Positions 28,639 to 36,672 of a stretch of DNA of 36,672 nucleotides are shown here, in pieces. The stretch lies in assembly GCA_025451095.1 (NCBI GenBank), contig JANWLB010000112.1:1-36672 (forward strand), given 5' to 3'. Both the position numbers and the translations under genes were made by a program. Each line of letters opens with the position of its first letter. Position 1 is the stretch's first letter. Source of the stretch: Alphaproteobacteria bacterium (GTDB lineage: Bacteria; Pseudomonadota; Alphaproteobacteria; Micavibrionales; Micavibrionaceae). The notes under the pieces are model-generated. The model ran no database searches, was not told where the DNA came from, and was given only the letters and a program-made list of their open reading frames with translations.

Positions 28639-29433
28639 CTACTGAAGCGTCGGTGACCCGGGCACTACGTTCGGCACCGGCGGCAAAGACGGCGTGGCCG
28701 GCTGCGCCGAAACCTGAGACCCTAACCCCGTCGCCGGCGTATTGCGATTGTCGTTGGCCGGCGGCTTATGGCGTGGCTCACGGATCTCGTCGATCACGCG
28801 CAGAAGCTTCGCCTCTTTGGGGGACATGAAATTATCGCGCTCCATAAGGCTTTCGACGCGCTTTGCGTCCATTCCCGTATATTGTGAGATGATCTCGATC
28901 ATGATGCCTTTGAGACGCTGCATTTCATTTATATAAATGTTCATATCGATATCCGTGCCGCGAAAACCGCCGCTGGGACCATGGATCATAATCCGGCTGC
29001 TGGGCAGCGCAACACGCTTGCCGGGCGTACCCGCGGCCAGAAGGACGGCTGCCATCGAGGCGCATTGCCCCTCGCAAACCGTGCGTACGTCGCTGCGCAG
29101 TGACTTCATGGCGTCATAAATCGCCAGCCCGGCTGTTACGCTGCCGCCCGGTGAATTGATCCGCAGCTCTATATCCTTGCCCGGCTCCATATCGTCAAGA
29201 AGCTGCAGCGTGGCGATCACGGCCGTCGCCACTCCATCGTCGATCGGACCGGTCAGGCGCACAATGCGGCGGTCGACCAGTTCATGCAGAAGCGGGTTTC
29301 CTGTGCTGACTTTGACAAAGTCGTCTTTGGCGCTTTTGGCGCTGCCACCGGCAAAAGCGGCGGCTTCTTCTTCAAAATGCGCTGTAAGGGACGAAGTGTC
29401 CGATGCGGCGCGGCGGCTGTTTTCCTGGCTCAT
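28639..29433 (-). CDS. ClpP-type serine protease with N- and C-terminal extensions
   Basis: A ClpP-family peptidase. The 264-residue protein has a full catalytic triad: Ser126 (GQCASMAAVLL), His151 (SRIMIHGPSGG) and Asp200 (MERDNFMSP). Spacings of 25 and 49 residues equal those of E. coli ClpP. The core spans about residues 45-220. It differs by an N-terminal extension of about 40 residues (ENSRRAASDTSSLTAHFEEE) and a proline-rich tail (about 40 residues, ending NVVPGSPTLQ). ATG 29433 is supported by GGGAGA 5 nt upstream; the frame's longer start at 29538 has none. It stands alone: no clpX, clpA or tig lies next to it. I infer a second ClpP paralogue; it may still be the main one. Confidence 0.88.
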   Translation of the reverse strand: MSQENSRRAASDTSSLTAHFEEEAAAFAGGSAKSAKDDFVKVSTGNPLLHELVDRRIVRLTGPIDDGVATAVIATLQLLDDMEPGKDIELRINSPGGSVTAGLAIYDAMKSLRSDVRTVCEGQCASMAAVLLAAGTPGKRVALPSSRIMIHGPSGGFRGTDIDMNIYINEMQRLKGIMIEIISQYTGMDAKRVESLMERDNFMSPKEAKLLRVIDEIREPRHKPPANDNRNTPATGLGSQVSAQPATPSLPPVPNVVPGSPTLQ

Positions 29434-29596
29434 AGTCGTCTCCCATATGTTCAAGCATATAAACCTTCCCTTACGCCGTCCTTTTTTTGTTATGTCTATA
29501 CGGGGCCGGAGCCTCCGCACAGCGGACTGCTCAATCAAGCACGAGATATATTAAAAAAGCCTAAAGAAGATACATAACGAGGAAAATCGGAGACGA

Positions 29597-30085
29597 TCAG
29601 AGGCCGCTTTTGTTTTTGATATAGGGCAGGCAATAAGGCAGAAGTCGTTTTTTGGTCCTGGCATCAAGACGTGAAAACCCAGTCAGGAATTTGCGGCACG
29701 ACGGCGTTCCACAAAGACAGGGCACCTTCCATTCGGGATCGTTTTCGCAGGTGCTGTAATCGAAGAACAGCTCCTCCTCTTTTTGAATATCGCGCAGGGC
29801 ATAGAACGCCGTACCTTCCTCATTGAAGGCCAGGTTAGGCTCACAGCTGTGGTTGATATAATCGTCCGGCTTTCCGGTTTCTTCAAGATAGAGATCGTCA
29901 TCGATCTGCAGGATTCCCTTGTCGCAACTGTGCCAGTCTACATCCTTGCCCCGAACAGCGCGTCCTGTCAGCTCTGTGACGATAGTTCCGGCCTTTATGT
30001 TGGAATTCGCAAACAGGCCACGTCCATCGATATCAGACGACCTGACACTAACATCCGCGTAGGCTTTGGCGTATCTGATGCGCAT
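29597..30085 (-). CDS. SET-domain protein, possible lysine methyltransferase
   Basis: SET domains transfer a methyl group from SAM to lysine. The 162-residue protein is little more than a SET core: DGRGLFANSNIKAGTIV near the start, YINHSCEPNLAF (N78-H-S-C81, the pseudoknot motif), ALRDIQKEEELFFDYS (catalytic-tyrosine region, Tyr110), and a post-SET cysteine cluster CLCGTPSC (Cys123, 125, 130) that can bind zinc with a Cys from the core. It begins 9 nt after the gyrA stop on the same strand and is probably cotranscribed. The substrate is unknown; bacteria lack histones, so ribosomal or DNA-associated proteins are candidates. Such genes are patchily distributed and may be acquired. Confidence 0.88.
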   Translation of the reverse strand: MRIRYAKAYADVSVRSSDIDGRGLFANSNIKAGTIVTELTGRAVRGKDVDWHSCDKGILQIDDDLYLEETGKPDDYINHSCEPNLAFNEEGTAFYALRDIQKEEELFFDYSTCENDPEWKVPCLCGTPSCRKFLTGFSRLDARTKKRLLPYCLPYIKNKSGL

Positions 30086-34469: not shown

Positions 34470-34934
34470 TCAGAACGGGATCTCGTCCTCAAGCGCGTCG
34501 ACGGGCTGCGAACTGTTGGCGGGCGCCGGCATGGAATCATACGATCCGCCACTGTCCGAAAAGCCGCCGGCCGCGCCGCCACGGGAATCGAGCATCGTCA
34601 GTTCGCCGCGGAAGGGACGCAGAACGACTTCCGTCGAATATTTGTCCTGGCCGCTGGCCTGGTCGGTCCATTTGCGTGTTTCCAGCTGGCCTTCCAGATA
34701 GACCTTGGCGCCTTTTTTCAGATAACGCTCAGCAATCGTCACAAGGCCCTGGTTGAATATGACCACGCGGTGCCACTCGGTACGCTCTTTACGTTCGCCC
34801 GTGGCCTTATCCTTCCAGCTTTCCGATGTCGCCACGGAAAGGTTAACAACCTTGTCGCCGGACTGCATGGTTCGAACTTCGGGATCGCGCCCCAGATTAC
34901 CCACCAGAATGACCTTGTTCACGCTGCCTGCCAC
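34470..34934 (-). CDS. ssb: Single-stranded DNA-binding protein
   Basis: SSB coats single-stranded DNA and recruits replication and repair partners through its C-terminal tip. From GTG 34934 the protein has 154 residues: [20 protein letters not shown] at the start, the OB fold with [11 protein letters not shown] and [13 protein letters not shown], a glycine/serine-rich linker, and the acidic partner-binding tip ALEDEIPF. The frame is open upstream to 34982, but GTG 34934 is preceded by AAGGGGG and gives the usual N-terminus. A promoter lies at 34999-34972. Confidence 0.97.
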
Positions 34935-34999: not shown

Positions 35000-35077
35000 C
35001 GGACTCTCTTGCCCCGATGGCGTATAAAACCTAGGTTTTTTTGGCCTTGTTCTGAAAGGGTTTTGTTTTCTTAATAC

Positions 35078-35106
35078 TTGATGTTTCTGGAAAACTCTGC
35101 TTTATT
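35078..35106 (+). promoter_or_regulatory. Possible promoter of the Clp-like ATPase gene
   Basis: TTGATG (35078-35083) and TTTATT (35101-35106) are separated by 17 bp. GGGAG lies about 9 nt before the ATG at 35153. The upstream 35020-35120 is AT-rich and contains the palindrome AAAACCTAGGTTTT (35026-35039). Confidence 0.4.
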
Positions 35107-35152
35107 TTAAACATAAATCTGAAAAAAAGCGGAGTATCAGGGAGCACCTGCA

Positions 35153-36672
35153 ATGGCCACTGCGTCGAACGACCGACACATCAAAGATTGCCATAAAAGA
35201 TTTCAAACCAATCTGCATGATTTCTCCCAGCTGATCATCAAGCTGATGCAGACTGAGGATATCCGGGTTGCGCTGGAACACGCCCCGTCCGTCGTCACGA
35301 AAGGCCGCAATTTCATCCAGATCGCGATGGATGACCTGATGGAAAACTTTGAATGGATGATCGAGACCGTCCGCCGCGATGATCCTTCCTTCGATGAAAA
35401 AAGAATCCCGGTCGAATTCTACCAGAACATGATGTTCAACCGCGATGGGCTCAAACTGAAGCGCAAAGAGGCGGAAGAAAAACTCAGATCGGGCCTTGAA
35501 GAAAAAAGAGGCAAGCTCGTTATGGGCCAGGTGATGCCTGAGTTCCTGAGCTGCACTCTCAACAGCATATCGCAGGAGCTTTCCCATGCCCTGCTGAGAA
35601 ACTGGTTCGTGGTCACAAACGATATGGCGCACCTTTTTGCCAACGAAGAAGCTCTTGTAGCTGAGATGTTTTCAAAATCGGCCACTGCTTCTCTTAGCGA
35701 GATGTATAACGGCTGGATTGATGAGCAAAAGCGTATTAAAGCCGAAGCAAAGAAAGCAGAAGAAAAAACGGACGAACCCGAACTTGATCCCCGGCTGATG
35801 ATGATGCTGGCCCGCTACGGAGAAGACATCACGGCAAGAGCCCTCCTCAACGACTATCCTCCCGCCATTGGCCGGGACGACGACGTCACTGACCTGAAGG
35901 CCTCCTTAATCCGGCCGAGCGGGCCCTGTGCCCTACTTCTAGGCAAGCAGGGCGTTGACAAAACGGCCATCACGCAAGGACTTGCCCACGATATCGTCAT
36001 GGGCAGGGTTCCGGCTCAGCTGAAAGATGCCCGGATCGTCCGCCTTAAAATCCGCGACCTGCGCGCCGATTCCGGAACAGGGCAAAAGGAAGAAGAGGAC
36101 GGCGAAACAAAAATTTACGATCAGTTTTTCGAACGCCTCCACTACATCCTGGAAAAGACCGCCGAACACAACGCCAGGAACAGAACGCAGATCATTCTGA
36201 ATATAGATGAAATGGATGACATTGCCCGCTCCTCCACCATATCAACAGCACGCGATCTGATTGCCGCGATGATGAAGGAGTACAAAACGCTGCGAATTGT
36301 AGCTGAAATGTCGGAAGATAAGCACTACAAGGCTGCGACAGAATCCCCTGATCTGATGAGCCGTTTCCAGACACAGAAAATTGAACCACTGAGCTTTGAA
36401 CTCACGCTTGAGCGCCTTAAGGAAACAGCCAGAACCCTGAAGAAAGAACAGGGCATATCAGTTAGTGACGATCTTCTGGCACGCACAATCAAGATGGCTG
36501 ATCGCCATCTGGCCACAATCGCCCGGCCGGGCAGCGCCCTGGACGTCCTTGAATCGGCGGCGGCCCGCGCCATGGCCCTGGGCTCCGAAGAGGTTACAGA
36601 AAGCCATATTGAAGATGTTCTTTCCGCGAAGACCGGCATTGCCAGGCACCTGATCGGCGATACGCTCTCGGA
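35153..36672 (+). CDS. Divergent Hsp100/Clp-type AAA+ protein (3' end outside window)
   Basis: The frame is open from ATG 35153 to the right edge (506 codons). Residues about 220-500 align in order with the first AAA+ domain of ClpA/ClpB: ALLLGKQGVDKTAITQGLAH (Walker A region, 261-280), IILNIDEMDDIA (Walker B, 347-358), MSRFQTQKIEPLS (arginine-finger region, Arg404), then RPGSALDVLESAAARAMA and VTESHIEDVLSAKTGIARHL, the entry to the second domain. The Walker A reads GKQGVDKT instead of GxxGxGKT, with Asp269 replacing the third glycine. The first 220 residues are helical and unlike the Clp N-domain, with a coiled-coil part (KLKRKEAEEKLRSGLEEKRGK). It is probably an unfoldase; its protease partner, if any, is unknown. 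Confidence 0.85.
   Translation, partial: MATASNDRHIKDCHKRFQTNLHDFSQLIIKLMQTEDIRVALEHAPSVVTKGRNFIQIAMDDLMENFEWMIETVRRDDPSFDEKRIPVEFYQNMMFNRDGLKLKRKEAEEKLRSGLEEKRGKLVMGQVMPEFLSCTLNSISQELSHALLRNWFVVTNDMAHLFANEEALVAEMFSKSATASLSEMYNGWIDEQKRIKAEAKKAEEKTDEPELDPRLMMMLARYGEDITARALLNDYPPAIGRDDDVTDLKASLIRPSGPCALLLGKQGVDKTAITQGLAHDIVMGRVPAQLKDARIVRLKIRDLRADSGTGQKEEEDGETKIYDQFFERLHYILEKTAEHNARNRTQIILNIDEMDDIARSSTISTARDLIAAMMKEYKTLRIVAEMSEDKHYKAATESPDLMSRFQTQKIEPLSFELTLERLKETARTLKKEQGISVSDDLLARTIKMADRHLATIARPGSALDVLESAAARAMALGSEEVTESHIEDVLSAKTGIARHLIGDTLS

Follow-up and report, generated by a model that had tools for sequence, protein, structure and literature searches.

AAA+ proteases are normally defined by their engine and their N-domain together. 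In the double-ring Clp unfoldases, LGF loops mark ClpC and are absent from ClpB (PMC10149685), and the N-domain of Lon binds substrates (PMC8087443). The window, a stretch of 36,672 nucleotides of alphaproteobacterial DNA, ends in a gene that combines a Clp-type AAA+ engine with an unfamiliar N-terminal domain, and related genes of the same bacterial family join this domain to engines of quite different kinds. A lineage thus seems able to replace its motor and yet retain the portion that probably selects the target. The parts of the interrupted reading frame are as follows.

35153 to 36670, plus strand: ORF of 506 codons, N-domain plus Clp-type AAA+ part, interrupted by the contig end, second ring missing
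35153 to 35722, plus strand: family-specific all-helical N-domain, residues 1-190, from profile matches in 18 genomes and AlphaFold2 models
35723 to 35797, plus strand: charged linker, approximately residues 191-215, from alignments, behind which the engine type changes
35798 to 36670, plus strand: first AAA+ ring (D1) of Hsp100/Clp type, partly degenerate

The contig (G000:C112) stops at 36672, and the ORF is open up to that edge. Its AAA+ part is of ClpA/ClpB type, and the identity of D1 as a Clp-type first ring is certain: ClpB and ClpC chains of the PDB match with E down to 1e-20, the NCBIfam models for ClpV, ClpA and ClpB match at 1e-28 to 1e-23, and residues 208-506 give a fold match of Z ≈ 27. 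ClpV is the best of these models, its match to D1 amounting to 97 bits vs a whole-protein cut-off of 885; no type VI secretion cluster, by which ClpV/TssH is recognised, lies at the locus, whose neighbours are gyrA, a DUF2059 gene, ssb and uvrA. The second ring (D2) is absent from the contig, and the rest of the organism's 85%-complete genome yielded no recognisable fragment of it. In the full-length Clp-type relatives both AAA+ rings reside in one chain, with Walker A, Walker B, pore loop 2, Arg finger and sensor 2 of D2 all kept and an LGF, IGF, VGF or PGF tripeptide at the ClpP-docking site in every member; by comparison with them, the window protein would be expected to carry a D2 as well. 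Inspection of the alignments revealed no ClpB-like coiled-coil middle domain, either in the window part or in the relatives.

The N-terminal region had been described in the sequence-only reading as unlike the Clp double-repeat domain, and this proved correct: residues 1-210 match no Pfam family above cut-off, Clp_N included, and PF02861 (the Clp_N double repeat) was found neither in the window protein nor in the six relatives scanned. Searches of Pfam, PHROG and the PDB returned no relative of the N-domain, which is a previously undescribed domain matching no known family. Structure prediction, proposed in the same reading, gave an all-helical AlphaFold2 model of moderate confidence (pLDDT 73.5, pTM 0.70) with no significant structural relative (best Foldseek E 0.46, best VIA-align Z 5.7). 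Assignment to a known fold was rejected and the fold is called neither new nor known, because these best scores lie within the noise for helical bundles. A profile built from eight relatives located the domain in 18 of the 104 genomes of the bacterial family, distributed over 8 of its 39 genera; with a 19-row profile, the 142 genomes of the order gave these 18 again and none of the 38 outside the family. In the overlapping samples of the class (385 genomes) and the phylum (398), the profile matched no genome other than the window's own. Within the genomes sampled, the domain occurs in one family of Micavibrio-like alphaproteobacteria only, and the records of the group include DUBU01000030 (Micavibrio sp.) as well as JAJFGQ010000024 and JAJFGW010000041 (Alphaproteobacteria). 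A viral origin of the gene was considered and dropped: two peptide patterns detected no relative in viral contigs, and there was no convincing PHROG and no BFVD fold match. That the N-domain may choose a special substrate, as proposed earlier, is plausible; the window alone could not reveal to that reading that Lon, CbbX and FtsH-type engines carry the same domain at this locus.

Four types of engine, assigned by Pfam, NCBIfam and motifs, follow this domain. The Clp type occurs in G000 (the window's genome), G021, G022, G051, G042, G106, G034, G132 and G057, the Lon type, in the slot beside ssb, in G001, G010 and G024, the CbbX/SpoVK type in G046, G136, G105 and G014, and the FtsH type in G049. 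The Lon-type copy of G053 lies at another locus, where G024 has a further one. In genus g24 a diverged N-domain-Lon gene was noticed outside the slot (L075 5425-7689 and L076 7862-10117). The Lon-type protein of G010 has an intact Ser-Lys protease, with GPSAG and IGGLPEK in place as in LonA, and scores 629 bits with the Lon model TIGR00763 (cut-off 608), and the substrate-binding N-terminal domain of Lon (PF02190) gave no match in it. The engine of G046 matches TIGR02881 (CbbX) at 2e-70, that of G021 has ClpB as its top match, and the AAA module of G049 matches TIGR01241 (FtsH) at 1e-125. No transmembrane anchor is present at the N terminus of the G049 protein, where the highest 19-residue hydropathy in the first 230 residues is 0.91; its contig ends inside the AAA module, and the M41 zinc protease half was not found at other contig edges. 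Engines are mixed within genera, Clp with Lon in g1, Lon with CbbX in g10, CbbX with FtsH in g14 and Clp with CbbX in g22.

The position of the gene is far more constant than its engine, and the slot is marked by the following features.

34470 to 34928, minus strand: ssb, constant neighbour of the gene and marker of the slot
35077 to 35106, plus strand: promoter-like element CTTGATG-N17-TTTATT, a weak match in the window and a strong one in six relatives
35138 to 35144, plus strand: ribosome-binding site CAGGGAG, common to different engine types

The gene and ssb are arranged head to head in nearly all carriers, and gyrA lies on the far side of ssb; gyrA, the DUF2059 gene and ssb lie on one strand, the N-domain gene on the other, followed usually by uvrA where the contig allows. 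In most of the non-carrier genomes examined, ssb and uvrA directly adjoin. At the place of the promoter-like element, CTTGAAA-N17-TCTAAT occurs with 0-1 mismatch in six carriers, whose engines are of Clp, CbbX or Lon type, and one mismatch was reached in 9 of 1,700 shuffles. SOS regulation, suggested by the ssb and uvrA neighbours, was discarded, as no GTTC-N7-GTTC box stood clearly above expectation. Other occupants of the ssb-uvrA slot were also noticed: in G018 it holds an 893-aa Clp protein (L098 1071-3752) whose D1 has decayed completely and whose N-terminal region is not matched by the N-domain profile, and in other genera a GGDEF-type gene, identified by eye, fills it (L088, L100, L105, L106, L115, L117).

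If whole genes had been replaced in this slot, the N-domains should group by engine. An AU test rejects a single clade of the CbbX-type N-domains (p 0.0003) and of the Clp-type N-domains (p 0.007); a single clade of the Lon-type N-domains was not rejected (p 0.10). G105 (CbbX) and G106 (Clp), members of one genus, pair in the N-domain tree (94/92), and the N-domains of G046 (CbbX) and G010 (Lon), again of one genus, are 47% identical. G046 and G136, both of CbbX type, have engines 70% identical and N-domains 38% identical, and the three Lon types of the ssb slot share 46-47% in the engine and 23-29% in the N-domain. On the species tree, at least six engine changes are needed. We infer both the direction of exchange and its mechanism, namely recombination in the linker.

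Another feature of the Clp-type members is the state of the first ring, for which the following sites were compared.

35942 to 35965, plus strand: altered Walker A GKQGVDKT, residues 264-271, with the Asp269 codon at 35957-35959
36065 to 36115, plus strand: D1 pore-1 loop region, residues 305-321, a longer acidic stretch in place of AGTxYRG
36203 to 36211, plus strand: D1 Walker B IDE, residues 351-353
36362 to 36364, plus strand: Arg404, the sole arginine left of the D1 Arg finger

The 506-codon ORF contains both GKQGVDKT, Asp269 included, and the Walker B IDE just as first read. The Arg-finger region, which had been taken as retained, keeps one arginine (LMSRFQ) and has lost the other of the pair, most control Clp proteins of the same bacterial family having LxRRFQ. 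The window protein thus departs from the canonical D1 set of Walker A GxxGxGKT, pore-1 AGxxYRG and an Arg-finger pair; five other Clp ATPases of genomes G000 and G010 retain the D1 motifs. Asp269 itself is not conserved. The sequence-only reading had named the normal glycine in homologues as the mark of a sequencing error or private variant, and since the closest relatives keep it (G021 GSLGTGKS, G106 GEEGVGKS and the second copy of G051 GGEGIGKS, all full-length and of the same bacterial family), Asp269 is a lineage variant by that reading's own standard. Decayed P-loops are found in the first copy of G051 (GKDYSNAR), in G042 (GEKGSGIE) and in G034, G132 and G057, where AEKGMDTS has an Asp at the position of Asp269 and the lysine is lost; in all, Walker A was lost in three lineages of the group. 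The D1 pore-1 loop is gone from every Clp member of the slot, the window protein included, and the Arg-finger pair is kept in no relative. D1 still evolves under purifying selection (dN/dS 0 to 0.07 in close pairs), and a structural role for the degenerate ring fits for that reason. The suggestion that the first ring may be structural gains support from this, from the decay of D1 motifs in several lineages and from the intact D2; a catalytically weak, structurally kept first ring appears to be the pattern of the group, with Asp269 as one local form.

A candidate peptidase partner is encoded in the window itself.

28639 to 29538, minus strand: ClpP paralogue with catalytic Ser and His kept

This paralogue, ≈ 6 kb from the AAA gene and beyond gyrA, has N- and C-terminal extensions and adjoins a small SET-domain-like protein, noticed by eye, at 29597-30085 on the minus strand. 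Counted as a second match above 100 bits, an extra ClpP beyond the housekeeping copy is present in 16 of 18 carriers vs about 7 of 86 non-carriers, G034 being the case in which the paralogue alone was found. An extra ClpP accompanies each of the 13 Clp- and CbbX-type carriers and the Lon-type G001, G024 and G053; the two carriers without it, G010 (Lon) and G049 (FtsH), have engines that bring or should bring their own protease. By plain counting, the association is strong (Fisher p 1e-11); the tree provides no more than three independent pairs with good support, whose direction is nearly always the expected one, and the association could reflect shared descent. The ClpP gene lies directly downstream of the N-domain gene in G042, G136 and G014, and the ClpPs of G046, G136 and G014, all of CbbX type, form one clade (99/99). 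Some extra ClpPs adjoin other Clp ATPases (G000:C4, G021:C34) and may serve those; at G000:C4 (L045 2660-11977), in the window's own genome, two ClpA-like and two ClpX-like ATPases are clustered with a ClpP. The C-terminal tails of three CbbX-type members (L042, L069, L070) contain LKFG or VGF, which is absent in G014 and could mimic the ClpP-docking motif.

The gene probably encodes the ATPase subunit of a dedicated ATP-dependent protease, built of an N-terminal targeting domain and an engine exchanged in the course of evolution. The sequences themselves show the shared N-domain, the constant ssb slot, the change of engine inside genera, the extra ClpP of all Clp- and CbbX-type carriers, the decayed but conserved D1, and the intact D2 with its docking loop in full-length relatives. 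The N-domain (190 residues) would recruit the substrate or an adaptor, and the lineage would swap the AAA+ engine behind it among the Clp double ring, Lon, CbbX/SpoVK and FtsH types. In the Clp type, D1 may be a passive collar that serves assembly and hand-over, D2 would pull the chain, and the unfolded chains would enter the paralogous ClpP, the presumed partner; in the Lon and FtsH types the engine's own ring would pull and the chains would enter the engine's own protease. More tentatively, with the chances slightly below even, the locus can be regarded as one slot in which promoter, ribosome site and N-domain stay and recombination replaces the whole engine, giving four architectures, of which the CbbX type would have taken ClpP as its peptidase.

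It is unlikely that the protein works on its own, in the manner of ClpB, ClpL or ClpV, as an Hsp100 disaggregase or remodelling ATPase that has no tie to a peptidase and binds aggregates or a particular assembly through its N-domain. The ClpV match of the window D1, the place of ClpB at the head of the list for G021 and the extra ClpPs that are not adjacent to the gene speak for it, yet the tripeptide at the D2 docking site is present in all full-length Clp-type members, and ClpB has no LGF loops (PMC10149685). No ClpB-like middle domain is visible, and one of the engines behind this N-domain is a Lon whose catalytic dyad is intact. To the same small extent the N-domain might serve mainly localisation or assembly, holding the hexamer at the membrane, the nucleoid or SSB, rather than select substrates. 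It serves engines whose natural N-domains differ greatly, a membrane anchor is missing from the first 230 residues of the FtsH type, and ssb is nearly always the neighbour; adjacency to ssb alone is, however, no sign of contact, and although nothing direct stands against localisation, the N-domain of Lon is a substrate binder (PMC8087443).

It is rather improbable that the gene belongs to an anti-phage or conflict system with the N-domain as fast-changing sensor or trigger, an ATPase-protease as effector and modular engine swaps, as could be read from the patchy presence, the engine exchange inside genera and the faster divergence of the N-domain in the three ssb-slot Lon types (23-29% vs 46-47%). 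PADLOC did not match the window protein and detected in relatives no more than general ATPase or Lon similarity, the single fixed slot lies beside housekeeping genes and not in a defence island, the search for viral relatives found none, and an N-domain dN/dS of 0.07-0.13 in close pairs gives no sign of positive selection. Of still lower probability is the view that the protein is an ordinary Clp ATPase except for Asp269, which would be a sequencing error or a neutral change private to it. One base change (GGC to GAC) suffices for it, the nearest relatives have Gly, and the sequence is the end of one MAG contig; against this, the window D1 lacks one Arg finger and the pore-1 loop as well, the decay of D1 motifs extends through the group, and the N-domain is unusual in any case. 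A base-calling error is made less likely by the Asp of the three relatives with AEKGMDTS and by the changed pore loop and Arg finger.

Should the slot with replaced engines be real, it would represent natural modular engineering of regulated proteolysis, with one targeting domain for several unrelated unfoldases. If the proposed roles hold, the group offers a natural test of whether substrate choice resides in the N-domain alone, of the way in which a double-ring Clp functions when its first ring is silent, and of whether a CbbX-type ATPase can feed ClpP, as well as a recruitment domain already found in natural fusions to four kinds of unfoldase.

Compared with ClpA and ClpC, the full-length Clp-type relatives are alike in the double AAA+ ring, in which no ClpB-type coiled-coil is visible, the D2 motifs and the LGF-type loop; the Clp-type proteins differ in that an unrelated N-domain replaces Clp_N and that D1 has no pore-1 loop and has lost Walker or Arg-finger residues. 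ClpI of Actinomycetota is likewise a lineage-restricted extra Clp unfoldase with a variable N-domain and LGF in part of its members, but it has intact ATPase modules and an M-domain, and its abstract mentions no replacement of the engine by Lon, CbbX or FtsH (PMC10149685). The Lon-type members share the AAA+, lid and protease domains with Ser-Lys dyad of LonA, whereas the new N-domain stands where the substrate-binding N-terminal domain of Lon would be. FtsH resembles G049 in its AAA module, and G049 differs in having no transmembrane helix in its N-terminal 230 residues. The engines of G046, G136, G105 and G014 are like CbbX/SpoVK/EccA-type AAA+ proteins and unlike them in the extra N-domain and in a ClpP paralogue as neighbour or candidate partner; a CbbX paired with ClpP, or one N-domain with exchangeable engines at one locus, was not found described in the limited literature searched. 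The parts belong to known families; what close relatives show at this one locus is an N-domain that forms the conserved identity and an engine that is the exchangeable part.
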